From a virus: 35,614 nucleotides of DNA. Below the pieces are notes generated by a model. It was given only the letters and a program-made list of their open reading frames with translations. It searched no databases and was not told where the DNA came from. Made by a program: the position numbers and the translations under genes. Below, piece by piece: positions 2,035-33,906 of the stretch. The stretch is taken from positions 1 through 35,614 of IMG/VR virus record IMGVR_UViG_3300032334_000964; one strand, written 5' to 3'. The number at the start of each line of letters is the position of its first letter. Positions within the stretch are counted from its first letter, which is position 1.

Positions 2035-2063
2035 ATTATACCTTTATCAGGCAAATAAGTCAA
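2035..2063 (-). promoter_or_regulatory. promoter TTGACT-17-TATAAT
   Basis: -35 TTGACT at 2058-2063, 17-nt spacer, TATAAT at 2035-2040, 6 nt to the ATG at 2028. The TGA stop of the SGNH gene (2060-2062) is inside the -35 box. Confidence 0.8.
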
Positions 2064-3067
2064 GTTTCAGTGTTATTTTTTTTGTGTAAATCGTAGAAAA
2101 AATCTGCAACATGATGATGAAAATGAATTCCTGGATGAGCAGAGTATGGTTTTCTTTTATAATCTACAACAACATAGTCAGACCCTTCGTGCCAACATGG
2201 ACTATCTTTAAATTCAGAATCATGATCAGAATTACAAATATCTTTTATATAAAGATTAGGGCTTTCTGGTTTGTCTTTTAACAAAAGCGGTGAATAATTT
2301 TTTAATTTAAAATTTTTTACTTTCATAAGTTTTTTCATGATTAAAAAACTTGTTGTATGCAATGTTGTCCAATGTAGTTTGATATTGTTTGACAAGCAAA
2401 ATGACTCTAAGATATAAAGACTATTTATAGAATTGAAAATTAGTTGATGTGGAGAAATTGAATCTTCAATATATTTTTGATCCTTCATTTCAACCATAAA
2501 AGCAGTTTCTTCATCATAACTTATAACTTTTGGACCACAAAACATTAATTGCAAGCCATTAATTTGTCCAAGATTTCTATCAACTTTTGACTTATAAAAC
2601 TCTTTATCTACCACGACCATACTTCTAAAAAAATCTGGCATTAAGCAAAAAATTTCTTTAGGCATTTTGTTATTCATGCAATACCGTATTATATCGTTAC
2701 AAATAGTTTGTACAGATGCCCCAGGATTTCCTATATTCATAACGCTTTTATTAGTTTTTTTACTTAAAAGATCTGTCCATCTTGCTGATTCTGGTACACC
2801 AATACCAAATGTTACAGAACAACCAGATACAAGTATTTCTGCATTTTCATCAACCTTTCCACGGAGACCAAGGCTATTTATTTCGTATTTATTGTACGGA
2901 TCCACTGTACCATTAAAAGATTTACCGTCTGGCTCTACAAGAAAAACATCTTTAGAATTTGGACTATAAACTCCAAGTATCCCGCTGCTCGTAAAATGCT
3001 TATCTAAGTAAAAGGCATTCTTTGGATTATATGTGTAAAAATCTAAAATGTTACTTGTTTCGTTCAT
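2060..3067 (-). CDS. SGNH/GDSL-type hydrolase or acyl-transferase-like protein
   Basis: 335 residues. Block I is ILVSGCSVTFGIG (about residues 78-90) with the predicted nucleophile Ser84, followed by ARWTDLL and a block II-like IGNPGAS. Near the C-terminus AHPGIHFHH supplies the HP..H of block V. Family members remove or transfer O-acyl groups on glycans and lipids. No signal peptide, so a cytoplasmic role is expected. A paralogue with the same motif order lies at 31884-32831 beside a glycosyltransferase and a GDP-sugar epimerase, which suggests a carbohydrate substrate (inference). It is leaderless from ATG 3067. Confidence 0.75.
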   Translation of the reverse strand: MNETSNILDFYTYNPKNAFYLDKHFTSSGILGVYSPNSKDVFLVEPDGKSFNGTVDPYNKYEINSLGLRGKVDENAEILVSGCSVTFGIGVPESARWTDLLSKKTNKSVMNIGNPGASVQTICNDIIRYCMNNKMPKEIFCLMPDFFRSMVVVDKEFYKSKVDRNLGQINGLQLMFCGPKVISYDEETAFMVEMKDQKYIEDSISPHQLIFNSINSLYILESFCLSNNIKLHWTTLHTTSFLIMKKLMKVKNFKLKNYSPLLLKDKPESPNLYIKDICNSDHDSEFKDSPCWHEGSDYVVVDYKRKPYSAHPGIHFHHHVADFFYDLHKKNNTET

Positions 3068-3105: not shown

Positions 3106-3639
3106 TCAGGGCTTTGTAAAATCTATTGCTCTTGATAGCAGTTTTTTGTATGGCTCATAGCATTCTTCTATATCTTCTATTTTAAAATGCTTTTGATCAT
3201 ATAGGGAGGATGTTTTGCTTGACACAAGGTGGTCAAACTTCTTATTATCTGCAAGAGTTTGAATTTTTTTGTTGTCTAGGCTTTCTACCAGCCCTAATAT
3301 ACTACAAACCCTTTCTAGAACTTCTTGTGGCTTTTGTATTAAATCGTTATAGTTAATAATAATTTCTGCATTTTCATAAGCAAAACCATATACTTCTTTA
3401 TATTGATCAATGTATGATTTATTAAAAGATTGTTCTGGGTAATAGTGTCTCTTCATAGTAACATGAGAGTGGATTGAGTCAAATGGGTCTCGTGCAATAG
3501 ATATGATTACAGCATTATCAATATTAGCCAAATCAATTGTGTGAGAATACGGAACAAGTTCTCCAGTTTTATTAATCAGCAAGTTTTGTAGATAGTTTGC
3601 CCCAGACCTGGGGTAGGTAATCATTTTTGCCTTGCTCAT
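3106..3639 (-). CDS. small PAPS-dependent sulfotransferase-like protein
   Basis: 177 residues. TYPRSGANYLQNL (residues 8-20) matches the 5'-phosphosulfate-binding loop, and IARDPFDSIHSH (48-59) matches the 3'-phosphate-binding motif with Arg50 and nearby Ser. INYNDLIQKPQEVLERV follows as in family members. It is shorter than typical sulfotransferases (about 250-300), so the acceptor-side elements are reduced. It starts 1 nt after a zinc-finger mini gene in the same operon. A second copy is at 7080-7631. Acceptor unknown; the neighbourhood suggests a glycan or protein-linked hydroxyl (inference). Confidence 0.75.
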   Translation of the reverse strand: MSKAKMITYPRSGANYLQNLLINKTGELVPYSHTIDLANIDNAVIISIARDPFDSIHSHVTMKRHYYPEQSFNKSYIDQYKEVYGFAYENAEIIINYNDLIQKPQEVLERVCSILGLVESLDNKKIQTLADNKKFDHLVSSKTSSLYDQKHFKIEDIEECYEPYKKLLSRAIDFTKP

Positions 3640-3781: not shown

Positions 3782-5182
3782 TTATACAAAATCAAACCAT
3801 ATAGGCATTATATATCTTGATCCATTTGCTGGTGTAACATTATACCAATAGTGCATATTACCAGGGAACATAACAAGATCACCAGTCTTAGGCTTAAACG
3901 ATATATCTTGATTGATAAAAGAAAGAGTTCCTCCATCGTAATCATCATTCAGATATACCCAACCAGCCATATGGTTGGAGTCTTTAGATCCCATATCGTC
4001 TATAGGAATTATTTGACTATTATTATGCCTCCACTCAGCAAAGCGAGAGTGTCTTGGTTTTACTGATATTCCATACTCTTTTTCTAGCATAGAGTGAACA
4101 CCAGGAACATACTTATCTGGTAAATCAAGTGAGTCATAATAGATTAGAGACAAGGCTTCGGATTGAAGTGGTCTTACATTGCTTGTCTCAGTTTCCTTAA
4201 TCATTCTAATTATGTTGTCACATGTTTCTTTGCTAAGGTAGTTACTGAATACTTTAACATTATTTGATCCGCTTCCAATTTTACTAAAGTTCTGGTGCGT
4301 TAGGCTTGGTTTGATAGCACTAGGGATTTCTCCATTGAACTCTTTAACTAGTTTAAGAAGTTGGCTAATATCTTTTTGATCTGTATGAATCATAAAGTCA
4401 TAAACACCAAACTTTGTAGAAAGTTCCCTTATTTGCTTCTTTACTTCTTCCATAGTTCCTTTTACATGATGGTGTTGTCTTCTTACTGGTGCATTTTCAT
4501 CATACTTAACATTTGTTTCGTCATCTGGATTATTAATAATTAGTGGATCAATAATGACTATTGGTTTTACTCTATCAAGGTTAATCTTTTTAAACTGATC
4601 ACTATAGAGCAGATTGTCATCAACATATGCATACTCACAGTGTTTGTTTGCTATCTCAATTGTGGTATCTGAAGAACCAACAACTGCCATATGTGTTTTA
4701 TGTTTGTGGGTCTTCATTAAATTCATAAACTTGTCCATCCAGACTGCAGATATCGCTACTCTTTTTTCTAGAGTATCAATTAAACTTGAGTCATGCATGT
4801 AATGATCTAAAACTATTTTTTCAGAAGGCCCATTGCCTTCATCTCCCCATCTTCCAGCAACCATATTTACACCAATTCTTCCAGGTGCAAACTGATTCAA
4901 TGTGTCAACAATTTTAGCAGCATAGTCTGGACTTACCCCATATGCTGGTAAGGCAATTGTCATGATTAGTTGATTTGTTTTTTGTAGCGCTTCTTGTATG
5001 ACTAAAGAAAAATCAATACCGCCTGGTCCATAAGGAAGCAAAACAGATTTAACATTTGCACCATCTAGTTCTTGCGCCATGCCAAGAATACCCTTTAGGT
5101 CTAGGTGCTCAGTACTATCATTTACTTGCCAGTGCCTTCTCCACATCCAGTGAAAAGTTATAGGATTGTTATTATTTTCCAT
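3782..5182 (-). CDS. fusion: luciferase-like (SsuD-type) monooxygenase + degenerate 2OG-Fe(II) oxygenase domain
   Basis: 466 residues. About 1-290 form a bacterial luciferase-like/alkanesulfonate monooxygenase TIM barrel: FHWMWRRHW, then LLPYGPGGIDFSLVIQEAL, IALPAYGVSPDYAAKIVDTL, and RIGVNMVAGRWGDEG, which parallels the SsuD NLVTGG region. Family members are FMNH2-dependent. About 310-466 form a prolyl-4-hydroxylase-like domain ending in GDLVMFPGNMHYWYNV and GSRY. Compared with the intact paralogue at 5438-6061, the first iron-ligand His of HxD is Pro (PID, about residue 393) and the distal His (HEV) is Tyr (YNV, about 447). The Asp (395) and the 2OG-binding Arg (456) remain; His444 is the only nearby His. 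The second domain may therefore be a non-catalytic binding module or use a rearranged site. The gene overlaps the end of the 88-residue gene by 11 nt. Confidence 0.8.
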   Translation of the reverse strand: MENNNNPITFHWMWRRHWQVNDSTEHLDLKGILGMAQELDGANVKSVLLPYGPGGIDFSLVIQEALQKTNQLIMTIALPAYGVSPDYAAKIVDTLNQFAPGRIGVNMVAGRWGDEGNGPSEKIVLDHYMHDSSLIDTLEKRVAISAVWMDKFMNLMKTHKHKTHMAVVGSSDTTIEIANKHCEYAYVDDNLLYSDQFKKINLDRVKPIVIIDPLIINNPDDETNVKYDENAPVRRQHHHVKGTMEEVKKQIRELSTKFGVYDFMIHTDQKDISQLLKLVKEFNGEIPSAIKPSLTHQNFSKIGSGSNNVKVFSNYLSKETCDNIIRMIKETETSNVRPLQSEALSLIYYDSLDLPDKYVPGVHSMLEKEYGISVKPRHSRFAEWRHNNSQIIPIDDMGSKDSNHMAGWVYLNDDYDGGTLSFINQDISFKPKTGDLVMFPGNMHYWYNVTPANGSRYIMPIWFDFV

Positions 5183-5438
5183 TGTTTATTACTCTTCCTT
5201 TAGTTTTAAACCAAGAACCAATTTTAGACTTTGCCACTTTAGTTCTTAATAGTTCTCCAAATGTTTCGTGAGAAATTTCTGATCCAAGGTATTCCTGGCC
5301 AGTCTCAAGGTCTATAAGTTTCCATTTGCCAGGTGCTTTTGTATGCAGAATTAAATCGATTGGATAGTCGTAATCGTTTACCTCAGAACCATCCAAAAGT
5401 TTTCTTTTTTTATTACTACTTTCTTGGCTATTTATCAT
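5172..5438 (-). CDS. unknown 88-residue protein between two oxygenase genes
   Basis: The basic N-terminus (NKKRKLLDGSEV) is followed by a compact mixed domain (LILHTKAPGKWKLIDLETGQ). Its ATG overlaps the TAA of the 2OG oxygenase (TAATG at 5438), and its end overlaps the fusion gene start, so all three are co-translated. No family recognised; it may be a partner of the oxygenases (inference). Confidence 0.7.
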   Translation of the reverse strand: MINSQESSNKKRKLLDGSEVNDYDYPIDLILHTKAPGKWKLIDLETGQEYLGSEISHETFGELLRTKVAKSKIGSWFKTKGRVINNGK

Positions 5439-6061
5439 TATTCAACTGTGTTCTCTGGTATTGTAAACCAAACAGGAACTGTGTATCTAGTGCCAGACAA
5501 AACCTCTTTAACCTCATGGGCGTAGTGCATATTCCCAGGGAACATGATGAGGTCACCCTTCTTAGGTTTAATAGTAAAATCATGTGTAGCAAAACTTAAC
5601 TCTCCACCCTCATAGTCATCATTAAGATATATAAGAGTTGGAAGATGGTTGTCTGTTACATAGCCAAGATCGTCTACATGTAGTGTTAGTTTTGTTCCTA
5701 CATCCCACCTTGCAATATTTAGCCTATCGCTTTTTGCTCTAGCATTTTCAACTCCGTAGGCCTTTTTTATTTCTTCTAAGATTCTGTCACTTATTTTGTC
5801 TTTGTCAATAATTGCTTCATAGTTGTGAATCCATGCAGTAGGGTTGCCTTCATTGTCTTTCTGAGAAACAAAACTAGTTCTTCTTCTTTCGTCGATATGA
5901 GACACAAGATATCTAATTTCTTTTGCAGTAAGAAAGTCTGGCACCACCTTGATGTTGTCCGAAGAGTTTCCTACTTTTTCAAAAAATTCTATGTATGATG
6001 GCGCTCTTTCGATCTCACTTGGATGATGGCCTACGGCTTGATTATTAACAATATACGGCAT
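5438..6061 (-). CDS. 2OG-Fe(II) oxygenase, prolyl 4-hydroxylase-like
   Basis: 207 residues from ATG 6061. The facial triad is visible: HVD (His128, Asp130) and the distal His in AHEV (about 182), with SGTRY supplying the 2OG-binding Arg (about 192). The YLNDDYEGGELSF strand pair is typical of the P4H superfamily. Members hydroxylate Pro or other side chains using O2, 2OG and Fe(II). Substrate unknown; collagen-like and Pro/Thr-rich virion proteins in this window are candidates (inference). The ATG lies 6 nt after TATAAT, so the upstream GTG is rejected. Confidence 0.82.
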   Translation of the reverse strand: MPYIVNNQAVGHHPSEIERAPSYIEFFEKVGNSSDNIKVVPDFLTAKEIRYLVSHIDERRRTSFVSQKDNEGNPTAWIHNYEAIIDKDKISDRILEEIKKAYGVENARAKSDRLNIARWDVGTKLTLHVDDLGYVTDNHLPTLIYLNDDYEGGELSFATHDFTIKPKKGDLIMFPGNMHYAHEVKEVLSGTRYTVPVWFTIPENTVE

Positions 6062-7054: not shown

Positions 7055-7083
7055 AGCATATCAAGTTTTTAGTTTATTGTCAA
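7055..7083 (-). promoter_or_regulatory. promoter TTGACA-17-TATGCT
   Basis: TTGACA at 7078-7083, 17 nt, TATGCT at 7055-7060, 6 nt to the ATG at 7048. The TGA stop of the upstream sulfotransferase (7080-7082) is embedded in the -35. Confidence 0.75.
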
Positions 7084-7631
7084 TGTATGGCTCTATCTAG
7101 CATGGCATGGTAAATATCATATAATCTAGATATGTCTGTATTTTCTACATATTCTCTGATCATTTCATACTCTCTTACATTCTTGCTGGATACAATATGA
7201 CCATGCTCAGTGTAGTCCTTAAGGCGACCAGACTCATAGTCTTCAGAAGTAATATCAATATTCATATGGTTGGCTAGGGACTTGATCGTTTCAATGGGGA
7301 AATTTATTAGCCTATCGTAATCTATTATAATGTCAAACTGGTCAACTATAGCCAGATCATCTGTGCCAGTAAAGTAGGCAGAGTAATCATTTAACCAAAG
7401 ACTTCTTAAGTTATTATTAACCAGTTTGTCTAAAGTAGTACTTGAGGTATCGTAGAAGTATCTCATAGAAACCTCAGATGTAAGAAACTCTACTGGGTCT
7501 CTGGCTATCGTTATCATTTTGTTATCTTGAATAGTGTGGAATCTTTCAACGAACAAACCAGTATGTTGGAGTATCCTATCTTGAAGGTAGTTAGAGCCAA
7601 CTCTAGGCAGGGTAACTATCGAATAATCCAT
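7080..7631 (-). CDS. small sulfotransferase-like protein, second copy
   Basis: 183 residues. VTLPRVGSNYLQDRI (6-20) is the phosphosulfate loop and ITIARDPVEFLTSEVSM (40-56) the 3'-phosphate motif. IDYDRLINFPIETIKSLANH parallels the other sulfotransferase (3106-3639). Both are short and share the FHTI / SHTI segment after the first motif, so they are diverged paralogues. Probably uses PAPS; acceptor unknown. Leaderless start at 7631. Confidence 0.75.
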   Translation of the reverse strand: MDYSIVTLPRVGSNYLQDRILQHTGLFVERFHTIQDNKMITIARDPVEFLTSEVSMRYFYDTSSTTLDKLVNNNLRSLWLNDYSAYFTGTDDLAIVDQFDIIIDYDRLINFPIETIKSLANHMNIDITSEDYESGRLKDYTEHGHIVSSKNVREYEMIREYVENTDISRLYDIYHAMLDRAIH

Positions 7632-24398: not shown

Positions 24399-25328
24399 AT
24401 GGCACGGTTTACTACAACAGGTGGATCAGGGTCTGGAACACCAGGCCCACAAGGACCGCAGGGTCCAGCAGGTGCAGATGGAGCAACCCCATTCACTATC
24501 GTAGGTTCTTATGACAATGGTGTCTCATATAATTTAGGAGTTGCTGTTTATTATAATGGCGGAACTTATGTAAGAACTGGTAATCCACTTAATCCTGGAT
24601 ACCCTCCAGCAGTAGGCTCTGTAAATGAATCATGGACCCCTCTTGCAGAAAAGGGTGAAACACCAGATCTTTCTTCATACTCAGGAGACATTCTTCCTTC
24701 AGCAGACAACCAGTATGTTTTAGGTAATTCAGAAAATAGATGGAAGTCTATATCTGTTGGTGATGGTACGATCTATATTACTGACGCTACCCTGGGAACA
24801 GAAGCAGGTATTACTGTTGACGATGGAGTTTTTCTTATCAACGGTATTGCACAAGCACAGTTGCCAAACCTTGCTGTCACTAATTTAATCTTTAATGATA
24901 ATACAGTTCAAACTACAGCAGCACCTGCAATTAGTGAACCAACTACATATAACCCAGTTTTTAGCGCAACAGGATTAACTTATACTGGCACTCCAACAAC
25001 AGGTTCGTATATGAAAATTGGCAAAATGGTTACATTTAGAATCCATGTTGATTTTGCTACCGTAACCAACTTTGGAACTGGTAAGTACTCTCTTACACTT
25101 CCTTTTGCTCCTGTAGCCCATTACATATTTAGGGATGGTGGGCTTCATCACACTGATACAAACCCAGACGACCATTATCAAGTTGCTGGTGATGCGGATC
25201 CTGGATCAACTACTTTATCTCTTTATTACTCATCTGGTGCTCAAGATTTAGCAATGGACAAAAACTCTCCGCATACTATACATACCAATGACTATCTGTA
25301 TATCTCTGGAACATACGAGACTGCATAA
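24399..25328 (+). CDS. collagen-like tail fibre / adsorption protein
   Basis: 309 residues. Gly-rich start, about five Gly-X-Y triplets (GTPGPQGPQGPAGADG, residues 13-28), then a carbohydrate-binding-like module (IVGSYDNGVSYNLGVAVYYN, GGTYVRT), a trimerisation-type segment with LGNSENRWKSISVGDG, and a C-terminal beta domain ending in ISGTYETA. Probably a trimeric fibre. It follows the upstream gene by 2 nt. Confidence 0.8.
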   Translation: MARFTTTGGSGSGTPGPQGPQGPAGADGATPFTIVGSYDNGVSYNLGVAVYYNGGTYVRTGNPLNPGYPPAVGSVNESWTPLAEKGETPDLSSYSGDILPSADNQYVLGNSENRWKSISVGDGTIYITDATLGTEAGITVDDGVFLINGIAQAQLPNLAVTNLIFNDNTVQTTAAPAISEPTTYNPVFSATGLTYTGTPTTGSYMKIGKMVTFRIHVDFATVTNFGTGKYSLTLPFAPVAHYIFRDGGLHHTDTNPDDHYQVAGDADPGSTTLSLYYSSGAQDLAMDKNSPHTIHTNDYLYISGTYETA

Positions 25329-25333
25329 TCGGG

Positions 25334-25342
25334 TGAGATAAT
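25334..25342 (+). promoter_or_regulatory. extended -10 TGAGATAAT, leaderless gene at 25349
   Basis: GATAAT 25337-25342 with upstream TGN; 6 nt to the ATG. Confidence 0.55.
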
Positions 25343-25348
25343 GTCACT

Positions 25349-26080
25349 ATGGCCGTTTCTAAATCTATGGATTTCCCTGGTGCAAAAAAATCTTCTTATG
25401 CTGCACAAGTAGAGCAAAGTCAAGCAACTGGTTTGCCAGATAATACTTTGTCATTTCTTCCTGTGCCAGGACCAGTAGGGCCAGAAGGACCAGCAGGTAG
25501 AGACGGTAAGGATGGCAAAGAAGGCCCAGAGGGGCCAGAAGGAAAGCCAGGTCCAAAAGGTGCTCAAGGTCCAGCAGGCAAAGATGGCCTGAGTTCTTTA
25601 TCATCTTCAGGACAGCAAGCAGGATGGGCATCTTACATAAACACAATTACCAAACCAACAAAACTTGGAATATCTCAAGGAGATGATGGCTGGGTAACAC
25701 TTCTACTGGACACAAAAGAAAAATACCAAAACGAGACATACCTTCCTAAAGGTTCTACTAGCCTTTGGAACAGCCATCAGAGAGCCCTAAACTTTCACGG
25801 TATAAAGGAAGGATCCCAAATATTCGTAACATACAACTTTGAACTAACTACCTATACATCTAACACAGAGGTTTGGCTAAGAACATACTTTTCAAGTAAA
25901 GATCAGGAGTTTGTGCAGTTTGTAGGCTCACTAAAGTATCAAAATGTATACAATCTTTCAGTCACACAGAATATTTTTATTGAAGACAAGTCTATGTGGG
26001 GTAACGGAGCAGTTCCTCAAATTAGAACAGACTTTGATGCATCAGTAATTCTCAATTCTGTATATGTCAGCGTGGTATAA
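25349..26080 (+). CDS. collagen-like virion protein
   Basis: 243 residues. Thirteen uninterrupted Gly-X-Y triplets at about residues 41-80, mostly GP-x, GKD and GPE. A C-terminal domain of about 140 residues (WVTLLLDTKEKYQNETYLPK onward) looks like a TNF/C1q-like or fibre-tip beta domain. Pro lies mainly at X, with one at Y (GKP). The stop TAA lies inside the next promoter. Confidence 0.8.
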   Translation: MAVSKSMDFPGAKKSSYAAQVEQSQATGLPDNTLSFLPVPGPVGPEGPAGRDGKDGKEGPEGPEGKPGPKGAQGPAGKDGLSSLSSSGQQAGWASYINTITKPTKLGISQGDDGWVTLLLDTKEKYQNETYLPKGSTSLWNSHQRALNFHGIKEGSQIFVTYNFELTTYTSNTEVWLRTYFSSKDQEFVQFVGSLKYQNVYNLSVTQNIFIEDKSMWGNGAVPQIRTDFDASVILNSVYVSVV

Positions 26081-27467: not shown

Positions 27468-29699
27468 ATGGCAGCAGAAAATATTGATAATACCGTCAAC
27501 GGTACTGGTCTGTTTCCCACAAAAGTCCCTGGTCTTTCAGATGCAGCAGATATTCAGGCAGCACTAAGACTATATCATTATGGGTCATATACCTATGATG
27601 GCGCCAATACAAACACCGCAAACCTTGTAAACCCATCTATTGCAAAGCACTTGCAAAATCTTGTAGATGCTGATGCAGCAGAAGTAATAAATAGAAACTC
27701 TGCTATTTCAACACATAACGCAGATACCACAGATGTCCACGGTATAGCAAACACAGCAAACCTAGCAACAAAATCTTATGTAGATGCAGGAATCCTCAGT
27801 GCAATCAATGGAGCAACAGGAGCATATTCTGATCTTGCTGGAACTGGTCTTGACTGGAACTCTGTTGATGAAAGGTTTGATGTCGAGCCAAGAATTTCAA
27901 ATGCTGGAACAATAATAACAAAAACAGCAGGCTTTTCTTTATCTGCAGAAGATGTTGGCAAAACAATTCTTTTGTATTCTTCTAGTCCAATTACCGTAAC
28001 TCTTCCTGCAAATTCTTCAACACCAATTCCAGTAGGGTATGCAGTTGATATAATTCAGACAGGAACTGGAGCAGTTACAGTTTCTGAAGGTAGCGGAGAT
28101 GTTTCAATTAATAGTAAGTCTGGAATAAAGTCATTAGATGGTCAGTATTCAAAAGGCACTTTAGTTAAACTTGACACCAATACATGGTTTTTTTTTGGAA
28201 ACTTACTTAATAATGTAAGTCCGACACCAACACCAACTGCCCCTACTCCAACTGCGCCAACACCAGTTACACCAACCCCAAGTCCAGTAGCACCAACTCC
28301 AACTCCAGTTGCTCCTACACCAATCGTTACACCAGTAGCACCAACACCAATTGTAACCCCAACAGCCCCTACACCAACAGCACTGCCAACTCTGCCAACA
28401 CCAACATTTACTGTTTATACAGGATGGCAAGTTTACCCAGGATCAGTTTATGCAACATTTGATATAACTAACTTTGACACAACATATACAACAACATACT
28501 CATCAACACTTGGAACACAAAACCAAGAATTTCCAGAACAGTTTATTGTAGAAAATCTGACACCAAATCAGTCATACACAGTAAGCATCACTGCATCTAA
28601 GGATGGATATACAAGTTCTACTGGGTCTGTAACATTTACTGCAAATCCTTCTGTTCAGCCCACACCGACACCAACTACCCCAGTAGCACCTACCCCAGTA
28701 GCACCTACCCCAGTAGCACCTACACCAACAACACCAACACCAGTTGCCGCACTTTCATGCCCACCACCAGGAGACACAAGTGGAAGTTATTCAGATCCAT
28801 GTAGTTTTGATCCAACAAGATGTTGCGATAGTGATGGAAGACCTTATGTAGCACCTACTCCAACACCTGTAGCACCTACACCTGTTGCCCCTACTCCAGT
28901 TGTAGTTCAGTGTCCAGACTGTATAGATGATGATGCAGGTTTCTGTCAAGGAAATGATTATTATCAGTATCAATATAGCCCTAGTGGACAATGCCAATGC
29001 TCTCCTAGACTATTAGAAGCAAATGCATTAGGCTGTATTGGCAGCACACCTACACCTACACCAGTTGCTCCTACACCAACAGCACCTACACCAGTTGCAC
29101 CAACTCCTGTAGCACCAACACCAGTTGCACCTACTTATCCACCACTTCTTTCTGGATGGCATACTTGTACACCTGAAGATGTTGCAAATCCTAGCAGCCC
29201 TTGTATCAATACAAGTCAGTGTAAAAATGGTGGAGCCTCTGGAGCAGAGTGTGCAGACCCTACAGCACCTACACCAACCGCACCTACACCAACAGCACCA
29301 ACGCCTGTAGCACCTACACCTGTAGCACCTACACCTGTAGCACCTACACCAACATCATCATATCCAGCATTACTTCCTGGATTGCATTATTGTTCTAATG
29401 GAGATGTTCCAAATCCAAACAGTCCATGTACCTCAGCAAATGTTAGAAATGGTGATTGTTTTGATGGAGGAGCATCTGGCCCATCATGTGCTGCAGCACC
29501 TACACCAGTAGCACCTACTCCAGCAGCACCTACACCAGTAGCACCTACTCCATCAGCACCTACACCTGCTGCACCTGCAGCATGTAATGAGACAGTTGAG
29601 TGCTGTTGGAGCCCATATGACCCAGAAACAGGCACTTATGGCACACAGTGTGACACATATACTGGAATATGTCCAGATCAGGTTAATGGTTGGTGCTAA
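27468..29699 (+). CDS. Pro/Thr-rich repeat appendage protein with FN3 and Cys-rich modules
   Basis: 743 residues. N-terminal 1-235 is a phage fibre base (ALRLYHYGSYTYDGANTNTA, THNADTTDVHGI). Then long (V/T)APTP linkers alternate with folded modules: a fibronectin type III-like domain (about 300-390, containing VENLTPNQSYTVSITA) and four Cys-rich modules, two of which are near-duplicates (CTPEDVANPSSPC...GGASGAEC and CSNGDVPNPNSPC...GGASGPSC). Dozens of APTP units resemble extended O-glycosylated linkers of actinobacterial cell-wall enzymes and plant hydroxyproline-rich proteins. Codons vary across the repeats, so they are protein-level repeats. Likely a long flexible host-binding appendage and a prime substrate for the nearby GT and 2OG oxygenases (inference). 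Confidence 0.82.
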   Translation: MAAENIDNTVNGTGLFPTKVPGLSDAADIQAALRLYHYGSYTYDGANTNTANLVNPSIAKHLQNLVDADAAEVINRNSAISTHNADTTDVHGIANTANLATKSYVDAGILSAINGATGAYSDLAGTGLDWNSVDERFDVEPRISNAGTIITKTAGFSLSAEDVGKTILLYSSSPITVTLPANSSTPIPVGYAVDIIQTGTGAVTVSEGSGDVSINSKSGIKSLDGQYSKGTLVKLDTNTWFFFGNLLNNVSPTPTPTAPTPTAPTPVTPTPSPVAPTPTPVAPTPIVTPVAPTPIVTPTAPTPTALPTLPTPTFTVYTGWQVYPGSVYATFDITNFDTTYTTTYSSTLGTQNQEFPEQFIVENLTPNQSYTVSITASKDGYTSSTGSVTFTANPSVQPTPTPTTPVAPTPVAPTPVAPTPTTPTPVAALSCPPPGDTSGSYSDPCSFDPTRCCDSDGRPYVAPTPTPVAPTPVAPTPVVVQCPDCIDDDAGFCQGNDYYQYQYSPSGQCQCSPRLLEANALGCIGSTPTPTPVAPTPTAPTPVAPTPVAPTPVAPTYPPLLSGWHTCTPEDVANPSSPCINTSQCKNGGASGAECADPTAPTPTAPTPTAPTPVAPTPVAPTPVAPTPTSSYPALLPGLHYCSNGDVPNPNSPCTSANVRNGDCFDGGASGPSCAAAPTPVAPTPAAPTPVAPTPSAPTPAAPAACNETVECCWSPYDPETGTYGTQCDTYTGICPDQVNGWC

Positions 29700-31813: not shown

Positions 31814-31884
31814 AAAGAATTGTTTATAAGTTTAGAATGTGGCGTAAATATAGGAAGATAAAAAAAGATGGTGTTATTTATTAA
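31807..31884 (+). CDS. 25-residue basic peptide between GT and SGNH genes
   Basis: MLKRIVYKFRMWRKYRKIKK followed by DGVIY. It overlaps the GT stop by 7 nt, and its TAA overlaps the next ATG (TAATG). Either a small basic protein or a coupling leader. Confidence 0.45.
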   Translation: MLKRIVYKFRMWRKYRKIKKDGVIY

Positions 31885-32831
31885 TGCTGTTTGATATGTT
31901 TAATCCAAGAGTTATTCCTCATATGGGAATTGATAAAAATAATCCTAAAAAAGATTATTCTCATACTTCTGCAATTTTAGCATCACACTCAGAAGTAGAA
32001 AGACCAGAATATAGTTACAAATGGAACAGTGATTGCTTGCGATCAATAGAATTTTCTTCAAATCCACCAATAGTTGCACTGGGATGCTCAATAACACTTG
32101 GGCAAGGAATGCCTCAAGAACTTAGATGGACAGATTTGCTTTCAAATAGAATTGGAGTTCCAATAGGAAATATTTCTTATTCTGGTGCTGCTGCTAATAA
32201 ACTGATTTCAAGTTTTTTTGGAATGATTCACCAATATCAATATAAACCAAAGGTTGTAATTGCACATTTTGCAAACTTTGAACGGTTTTATTTTGTTAGT
32301 CCAAATGGCGAGTCAATGCAGGAGTGGTATATTAACCATAAGCCAAAAAAGACAAAGGTATCGGCACCATGGGATTATGAAGAAATACTTCCATATGAGT
32401 GGGTATATTATCAAAATTTAGATCATATTAAAATGCTTGAGGCTTTCTGTGAGTCTAACGATATAAAACTTTTTTGGTCTTGTTGGTCAAATGGTCTAAC
32501 TGACGAGCAGGAGCAATTCTTAAAAGATAATTTTAGACATTATGTTTCAGACACAACAAAAATAGAGTTTCCTACAGACTTTGAATTTGGATGTAATCCA
32601 AAAGATGTTTCTGAACTTACTGGTCGTTTTCAGATGATAAATTGGCAGGGCTGCCACAAAGAGTATAAATACAAGTATCCAGAAATATTTGACTATGGAT
32701 ATGACTATCATAAATTCCCTTATGACTATGGAAGGGTAAAGGGGCCTGGAGCACATTGGCCACATCCTGGACTTCACAAGCATCTGCATATATCTGAGTT
32801 TTGGGAAAAACAGATATCTGGTTTGTTTTAA
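31884..32831 (+). CDS. SGNH/GDSL-type hydrolase or acyltransferase-like protein
   Basis: 315 residues. Block I IVALGCSITLGQG with Ser69, ELRWTDLLSNRIG, ISYSGAAANKL (block II), VIAHFANFERF (block III region), and HPGLHKHLH (block V) near 297-305. Paralogous to 2060-3067: the same GCS.T.G.G...RWTDLL order. In this operon it may add or remove an acyl group on the sugar built by the GT and epimerase (inference). Confidence 0.75.
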   Translation: MLFDMFNPRVIPHMGIDKNNPKKDYSHTSAILASHSEVERPEYSYKWNSDCLRSIEFSSNPPIVALGCSITLGQGMPQELRWTDLLSNRIGVPIGNISYSGAAANKLISSFFGMIHQYQYKPKVVIAHFANFERFYFVSPNGESMQEWYINHKPKKTKVSAPWDYEEILPYEWVYYQNLDHIKMLEAFCESNDIKLFWSCWSNGLTDEQEQFLKDNFRHYVSDTTKIEFPTDFEFGCNPKDVSELTGRFQMINWQGCHKEYKYKYPEIFDYGYDYHKFPYDYGRVKGPGAHWPHPGLHKHLHISEFWEKQISGLF

Positions 32832-32874: not shown

Positions 32875-33906
32875 ATGAAAACAGCATTAGTACTTGGTGC
32901 AGGTGGCTTTATAGGTAGCCATATGGTAAATAGACTCAAGTCTGAAGGATATTGGGTTAGAGGTGTTGATCTAAAGCATCCAGATTTCTCTAACACACAG
33001 GCAGACGAATTTATTGAAAGAGATCTTTCTGTTTATGAAAATGTTGAAAAGGCAATACAGTTTAAAGGTTATCAGGGAAACTTTTATAATGAAATTCCAT
33101 ATAAACTGATTACAGGTTTTGACGAAATTTACCAGTTTGCAGCAGACATGGGCGGTGCTGGCTACATTTTCACTGGAGACAATGATTCTCAGATTATGGA
33201 AAATTCTGCACTTATAAACCTTAATCTTCTAAGGGCTCAATCAAGACTAAATGCTAAGTACGATATAAATAAGACAAAAATATTCTATTCAAGTTCTGCC
33301 TGTATGTATCCTGATTACAAGCAGTTAGATGTTAATAATCCTGGACTTAAGGAGTCTGATGCATACCCCGCAGATCCTGATAGTGAGTATGGCTGGGAAA
33401 AGTTGTTTAGTGAGAGAATGTTCTTGGCGTTTAATCGAAACAATAAAATTCCTGTAGCCATTGCTAGATACCACAATATCTATGGACCAGAAGGAACTTG
33501 GGATGGTGGAAAAGAAAAGGCTCCTGCTGCAATGTGTAGAAAAGTTATACAGGCAGATAACTTCATAGAAATTTGGGGGGATGGAGAGCAAACTCGTTCA
33601 TTCCTATATATAGATGAATGCATAGAAGCAACAAGAAGGCTTATGCAGTCAGACTTCACTGGCCCAGTCAATATTGGATCTGAAGAGATGGTTACCATCA
33701 ATCAGTTAGTTGATATTGCCTGCAGTATTGAAGGAAAGGTTCTTAGTAAAATGCATATCCCTGGACCTTTAGGGGTTAGAGGCAGAAACTCTAATAACGA
33801 CTTGGTTAGAGAAAAGTTGAATTGGGACTATTCTATGTCCCTTAAAGATGGAATTGAAAAAACCTATAACTGGATACTTCAGGAAATAAAAAAGAACCCC
33901 TCCTAA
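32875..33906 (+). CDS. GDP-mannose 3,5-epimerase (GME) homologue
   Basis: 343 residues, extended SDR fold. NAD loop LGAGGFIGSH (7-16), DMGGAGYIF, SSSACMYP, YGWEK (Tyr172, Lys176), RYHNIYGPEGTW, KEKAPAAMCRK, IWGDGEQTRSF and PGPLGVRGRNSNN follow plant GME almost block by block. From memory, Arabidopsis GME uses Cys145, Tyr174, Lys178 and Lys217; here Cys143, Tyr172, Lys176 and Lys215 sit at a constant offset of two. The enzyme makes GDP-L-galactose and GDP-L-gulose from GDP-mannose. SD GAGGAAG before the ATG. It partners the GDP-sugar transferase two genes upstream. Unusual cargo for a phage. Confidence 0.86.
   Translation: MKTALVLGAGGFIGSHMVNRLKSEGYWVRGVDLKHPDFSNTQADEFIERDLSVYENVEKAIQFKGYQGNFYNEIPYKLITGFDEIYQFAADMGGAGYIFTGDNDSQIMENSALINLNLLRAQSRLNAKYDINKTKIFYSSSACMYPDYKQLDVNNPGLKESDAYPADPDSEYGWEKLFSERMFLAFNRNNKIPVAIARYHNIYGPEGTWDGGKEKAPAAMCRKVIQADNFIEIWGDGEQTRSFLYIDECIEATRRLMQSDFTGPVNIGSEEMVTINQLVDIACSIEGKVLSKMHIPGPLGVRGRNSNNDLVREKLNWDYSMSLKDGIEKTYNWILQEIKKNPS

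Follow-up and report, generated by a model that had tools for sequence, protein, structure and literature searches.

The window analyzed here, the whole of a viral DNA stretch of 35,614 nucleotides (IMG/VR record IMGVR_UViG_3300032334_000964), carries on its minus strand, at positions 3782..5182, a gene for a single protein of 466 amino acids in which a luciferase-like mono-oxygenase is joined to a pseudo-prolyl-hydroxylase. The assignment is based on the open reading frame and on fold matches of both halves; the plus strand across 3782-5182 contains many stop codons. Residues 1-283 (4334..5182, minus strand) represent a short form of an SsuD/YtnJ-like flavin mono-oxygenase barrel, as recognized by Foldseek, VIA-align and TIGR03565, the boundary at residue 283 being taken from the end of the free-standing gene in relatives in which the two halves are split. 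A linker comprising residues 284-298 (4289..4333, minus strand), which differs in length and sequence between clades, leads to a domain of prolyl-4-hydroxylase (P4H) fold without iron ligands, which extends over residues 299-466 and the stop codon (3782..4288, minus strand) and was identified by a model of the C-terminal part and by PF13640. The neighboring genes lie on the minus strand as well. A small gene encoding 88 amino acids (5172..5438) shares 11 nt with the start of the fused gene and 1 nt with the end of the next gene; the latter (5438..6061), two genes upstream of the fused gene, encodes an intact P4H-like paralogue with the motif HVD...H...R. On the other side lies a sulfotransferase-like gene (3106..3639); in 90 of the 107 loci that have the fused gene in full length, this is the next recognized one downstream.

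An earlier reading based on the sequence alone had proposed this fusion of an SsuD-type barrel to a P4H-like domain, and the models obtained for each half bear this out, with the strand being minus. The model of the whole protein, built from 49 sequences, was modest (mean pLDDT 75.7, pTM 0.56) and does not fix the mutual arrangement of the two domains. When the C-terminal 182 residues (285-466) were folded and structure-searched on their own, a confident model resulted (pLDDT 89.9, pTM 0.86), which shows a double-stranded beta-helix of P4H type and matched prolyl hydroxylases, among them PHD2 (Foldseek, E 6e-8) and the viral collagen prolyl hydroxylase vCPH (Z 15.1, rmsd 2.9, 155 residues aligned). 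In addition, the domain matched the Pfam family 2OG-FeII_Oxy_3 (PF13640) above its cut-off (E 1.2e-6). No match spanning both domains occurred among the matches listed for the PDB and viral structure libraries.

Alignment of the fused protein to the paralogue encoded two genes upstream showed PID in place of HVD and WYNV in place of AHEV. Both iron-binding histidines of the HxD...H triad are thus replaced in the window copy, His393 by Pro (codon 4004..4006) and the distal His447 by Tyr (codon 3842..3844), resulting in PxD...Y, while Asp395 (codon 3998..4000) and the 2-oxoglutarate (2OG)-binding Arg456 (codon 3815..3817) are kept, just as the sequence-only reading had described. The substitutions are conserved in metagenomic phage relatives. 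Among 60 distinct fused proteins, position 393 is occupied by Pro (43), Ser (7), Arg (6) or Ala (4) and never by His, position 447 by Tyr (58) or His (2), and Arg456 is kept throughout. The earlier claim that the aspartate is kept holds for the window copy and 54 of the 60 relatives and fails for the other six, which have Asn. Each of the 60 proteins retains at most one of the three iron ligands, the two with His447 having none at positions 393 and 395. Half of them (30/60) read PDHYR at residues 393, 395, 444, 447 and 456, with Arg, Ser or Ala at 393 in some of the others. In the adjacent intact paralogue, the corresponding H, D, H and R are all present in 60 of 60 neighbors. The fused domains have, among others, R337, R377, R380, H386, K400, D401, W408, Q425, W446 and D464 as invariant residues that are not invariant in the paralogue, and the bulky W446 and W408 stand where small or aliphatic residues were.

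Pairwise Nei-Gojobori comparisons, restricted to pairs with a dS of 0.15-1.2, gave median dN/dS values of 0.093 (barrel), 0.137 (domain lacking the ligands; 0.116 if only its core is considered) and 0.219 (intact paralogue). Purifying selection on the dead domain is strong and exceeds that on the intact paralogue; of the two halves, the barrel is the better conserved one. In phylogenetic analysis, the fused dead domains formed a single clade (100/100 support) with a long stem. Together, the purifying selection, the single long-stemmed clade and the invariant residues of its own indicate a changed function rather than decay. An isolated error or frameshift as the origin of the altered motifs is ruled out by their conservation in 60 distinct relatives under purifying selection. 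Among intact proteins, the one most closely related to the dead domain (95/77 support) is an extra P4H found in two related loci, L027 (2487-3080) and L081 (2484-3077), where this additional intact gene lies immediately downstream of the fused gene. Two further loci, L079 (5600-7407) and L082 (5114-6915), contain three more P4H-like genes, which are arranged in tandem, overlap and follow the fused gene and an SGNH gene.

A scan with the small neighboring 88-residue gene also reached relatives in which the protein is split. The fusion is not universal: in 10 distinct relatives, the halves occur as separate, adjacent genes. At split loci, the barrel ends after 283 residues at ...LVKEFN, and directly past its stop codon begins the gene for the dead domain, which is preceded by an AAGGAG motif; at one of these loci (L222) the two genes overlap. 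The free-standing domains lack the iron ligands as well, with PIDD/WYNV or SIDD/IYDI in their place and at most one ligand in all 12 split loci examined. An intact HxD...H in separated halves, the observation that the sequence-only reading had named as speaking against it, was accordingly not encountered; separate halves exist, and their domain is equally devoid of ligands. For the same reason, loss of the ligands as a by-product of the fusion is not favored. Among 76 distinct full-length barrels with enough downstream sequence, 66 were fused to the dead domain, 10 were split from it and none stood alone; four further barrels, which stop at a contig edge, are outside this count. The mono-oxygenase barrel is obligately paired with the dead domain, either fused or adjacent. 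A tree of the joined sequences requires at least two fusion or fission changes, forced by well-supported branches, so that the fusion either arose twice or was lost and then regained. The two clades of fused proteins differ in their linkers, and MQISELT, with which the free-standing gene starts, is still present in one fused group. If a given pair of proteins is joined repeatedly, this classically points to a working complex, and the repeated fusion of barrel and dead domain is therefore a sign that both work as a complex.

Residues 5-287 are modeled as a luciferase-like TIM barrel with SsuD (1m41) as the best Foldseek match (E 4.6e-11). VIA-align placed CmoJ/YtnJ first (Z 21.7, rmsd 3.5, 263 residues aligned), followed by SfnG (Z 21.3) and SsuD (Z 20.5). 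F420-dependent enzymes matched about equally well (KvPepI, Z 20.4), so that the choice of cofactor between FMN and F420 is not decided by the fold alone. SsuD/MsuD was the best sequence match; the hit to the NCBIfam model for SsuD (TIGR03565, E 1.2e-6, residues 29-137) did not reach the equivalog cut-off (27.9 vs 518.2 bits), and the barrel also stayed under the curated cut-off of Pfam PF00296 (14 vs 27.9 bits), which none of 17 phage contigs exceeded. With about 283 residues, the barrel is some 100 residues shorter than SsuD (381 aa). In the dioxygen pocket, group C enzymes are expected to have Leu, Thr/Ser, Ala and NxV. In MsuD, this pocket includes Leu46, Ala75, Asn104 and Val106, and a lid and the C-terminal tail shut the active site (PMC8234197). 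The barrel was paired with MsuD via E. coli SsuD, partly by eye and at low identity, the hhalign alignment to SsuD reaching approximately residue 190. In this low-identity alignment, the four pocket residues correspond to L48, A77, N106 and V108, which are invariant, and the Ser-Ser of the FMN phosphate site corresponds to the invariant S170-S171. Other flavin contacts are altered (Thr49 to Tyr51, Arg126 to His130, Tyr127 to Asp131 and Trp195 to Asp188), suggesting that the flavin site is conserved only in part. This pattern would more likely reflect an FMN enzyme that is still active and has a new substrate site. Members of two Pfam families of flavin reductases were not found in 15 phage contigs, which are incomplete, and reduced flavin would thus be supplied by the host.

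We consider it probable that the protein works as an FMN mono-oxygenase and that the pseudo-hydroxylase is its obligate subunit, which caps the barrel or docks the substrate. One part would be an FMN-dependent luciferase-like (group C) mono-oxygenase using reduced flavin from the host; the other would derive from a phage prolyl 4-hydroxylase that has lost its iron site, and would act as a non-catalytic but obligate partner. This partner may have been kept because it positions the substrate, most probably a polypeptide, above the flavin barrel. As the barrel falls short of SsuD by about 100 residues and MsuD is closed by its lid and tail, the partner may also do this closing job in place of the two elements, which seem to be absent from the shortened barrel. 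The active flavin site, the use of FMN rather than F420 and the docking or capping by the partner are what we infer. The sequence-only reading had offered a flavoenzyme steered by a dead domain as one of two options, and the conserved ligand loss, the purifying selection and the obligate pairing make it the best-supported one.

LuxF-type proteins are non-fluorescent flavoproteins within the luciferase superfamily, and it is conceivable, albeit rather unlikely, that the barrel is similarly no longer a mono-oxygenase and that the whole protein serves as a flavin-binding or structural scaffold. The contacts changed to Tyr51, Asp131 and Asp188 (by alignment with PMC8234197) would fit such a role, as would the absence of the two searched flavin reductase families from the phage contigs. 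However, the residues aligned with the dioxygen pocket (Leu, Ala and NxV) and the phosphate-site Ser-Ser are invariant, and it is the barrel that is the more conserved half at a dN/dS of 0.093.

With respect to distribution, 129 relatives were found in IMG/VR, and the carriers are a group of lake viruses infecting bacteria. No cellular homologue was detected by pattern search in 84,980 bacterial and archaeal species genomes (one per species), nor was a stand-alone barrel found in isolate phages by tblastn, even at E 10. The carriers are probably phages of Actinomycetota, as a conserved protein of the window is 52% identical to Streptomyces phage proteins. The window also encodes a nucleotide-sugar epimerase (32875-33906) with about 67-69% identity to cyanophage and marine virus proteins, which is unusual beside genes resembling those of Actinomycetota phages. 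Two SGNH/GDSL-like proteins are encoded on opposite strands (2060-3067 and 31884-32831), with two to three copies in several related contigs. There are further two short sulfotransferase-like proteins of about 180 aa (3106-3639 and 7080-7631), for the first of which isolate phages yielded no match.

The genes for the intact P4H, the small protein and the fused protein follow one another in this order in 106 of 107 loci, several of which are repeats of one contig. This position between both enzyme genes might indicate that the 88-residue protein, itself very conserved, is the shared substrate of the two oxidizing enzymes in a precursor-like arrangement. We regard this as very improbable, since the protein is conserved along its whole length, is present in many related phages without the mono-oxygenase (its family has 372 relatives in IMG/VR, with and without the latter) and is similar to the C-terminal end of RB69ORF052c, a protein of the kinase/nucleotidyltransferase kind from RB69-type phages. 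Its occurrence without the mono-oxygenase also weakens the idea of a dedicated third component. RB69ORF052c itself is a kinase-like gene that adjoins sugar-nucleotide genes in T4-like phages.

If the pseudo-hydroxylase docks a substrate, as we favor, this may well be a protein, e.g., one of the collagen-like tail proteins that these phages encode, with the neighboring hydroxylase perhaps acting on it in turn. Prolyl hydroxylases of the P4H type act on proline-rich or collagen-like chains, so that a virion protein may reasonably be supposed to serve both enzymes as substrate. Of 17 contigs of these phages, 8 encode collagen-like proteins, the window among them; as such proteins are common in phages, their co-occurrence with the fused gene is weak evidence. 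In the window, two structural-block proteins (24399-26080) contain collagen-like Gly-X-Y repeats (GPQGPQGPAG; GPEGPAGRDGKDG), and several related contigs again contain a collagen-like frame of this same length (247 aa). A 743-residue protein with long APTPVAPTP proline-threonine repeats is encoded at 27468-29699; proline-rich APTP repeats were rejected as a common substrate, being found only in the window and in none of 16 related contigs. A more specific and rather speculative version holds that the dead prolyl hydroxylase recruits the substrate, so that one virion protein would be oxygenated by the intact iron enzyme and then by the flavin enzyme. The phage would in this case apply two chemically different oxygenations, the flavin enzyme being recruited via the hydroxylase's own dead copy.

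The second option of the sequence-only reading, a C-terminal domain that still acts as a metal oxygenase with a rearranged ligand set including His444, is very improbable in our view. Asp395 (54/60) and Arg456 (60/60) would be in line with such a site, and an invariant His386 is found only in the dead-domain family. However, His444 is missing in 10 of the 60 fused relatives and occurs just as often in the intact paralogues (58/67), Asp395 is itself replaced by Asn in six relatives, and the bulky W446 and W408 have taken the place of small or aliphatic residues. In addition, the residue two positions past the 2OG-binding arginine, which presumably takes part in 2OG binding (RxS/T motif), is Thr or Ser in 67 of 67 intact paralogues but Ile458 in all 60 fused proteins (RYT/S to RYI). 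This argues against normal 2OG binding, and the proposal that the dead domain still binds 2OG, although consistent with the fully conserved Arg456, is weakened accordingly. Least likely is an auxiliary metabolic enzyme of SsuD type for scavenging sulfur from organosulfonates, with a C-terminal domain that is incidental. The SsuD/MsuD sequence match and the nearby sulfotransferase genes would fit this explanation; against it are a score far under the SsuD equivalog cut-off (27.9 vs 518 bits), a barrel shorter by about 100 residues and an obligate pairing to which it gives no role.

The protein is a new combination of known folds, whose function we infer, and no description of this two-domain architecture was found in the open-access literature. 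Also new are the split gene pairs with an equally ligand-less separate domain. The system represents a natural experiment on pseudoenzymes, in which an oxygenase fold lost its metal site once, has remained more strongly selected than its intact sister and now serves an unrelated oxygenase as obligate partner, in fusion with it as well as in the form of a separate subunit. The two-gene form makes the role of a dead 2OG oxygenase domain directly testable, and the pairing points to an undescribed oxidative modification pathway of phages in lake viruses.

The barrel shares with the two-component group C enzymes SsuD, MsuD, SfnG and CmoJ/YtnJ the TIM barrel fold (Z 20-22) and, in a low-identity alignment, the Leu/Ala/NxV pocket and the Ser-Ser motif, but differs from them in its low identity (15-18%), its length (about 283 vs about 380 residues), several flavin contacts and the presence of a second, unrelated domain. 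Residues 299-466 resemble PHD2, vCPH and bacterial P4H in fold, in the PF13640 match above cut-off and in the retained 2OG-type arginine; unlike these, the phage domain has lost both iron histidines in nearly all members, keeps at most one of three ligands and has RYI instead of RYT/S. The best viral structural matches, A0A6J7WN64 and A0A6J7WQ01 of uncultured tailed phages, are likewise short luciferase-like barrels (249-251 aa), but are only 18% identical and their entries have no fused hydroxylase domain. In bacterial luciferase, LuxAB, the luciferase-like catalytic subunit needs a non-catalytic partner, LuxB, which is a paralogue of the same fold. The phage protein would resemble LuxAB in combining a luciferase-like catalytic subunit with a non-catalytic partner, whereas its partner is of an unrelated fold that stems from another oxygenase.
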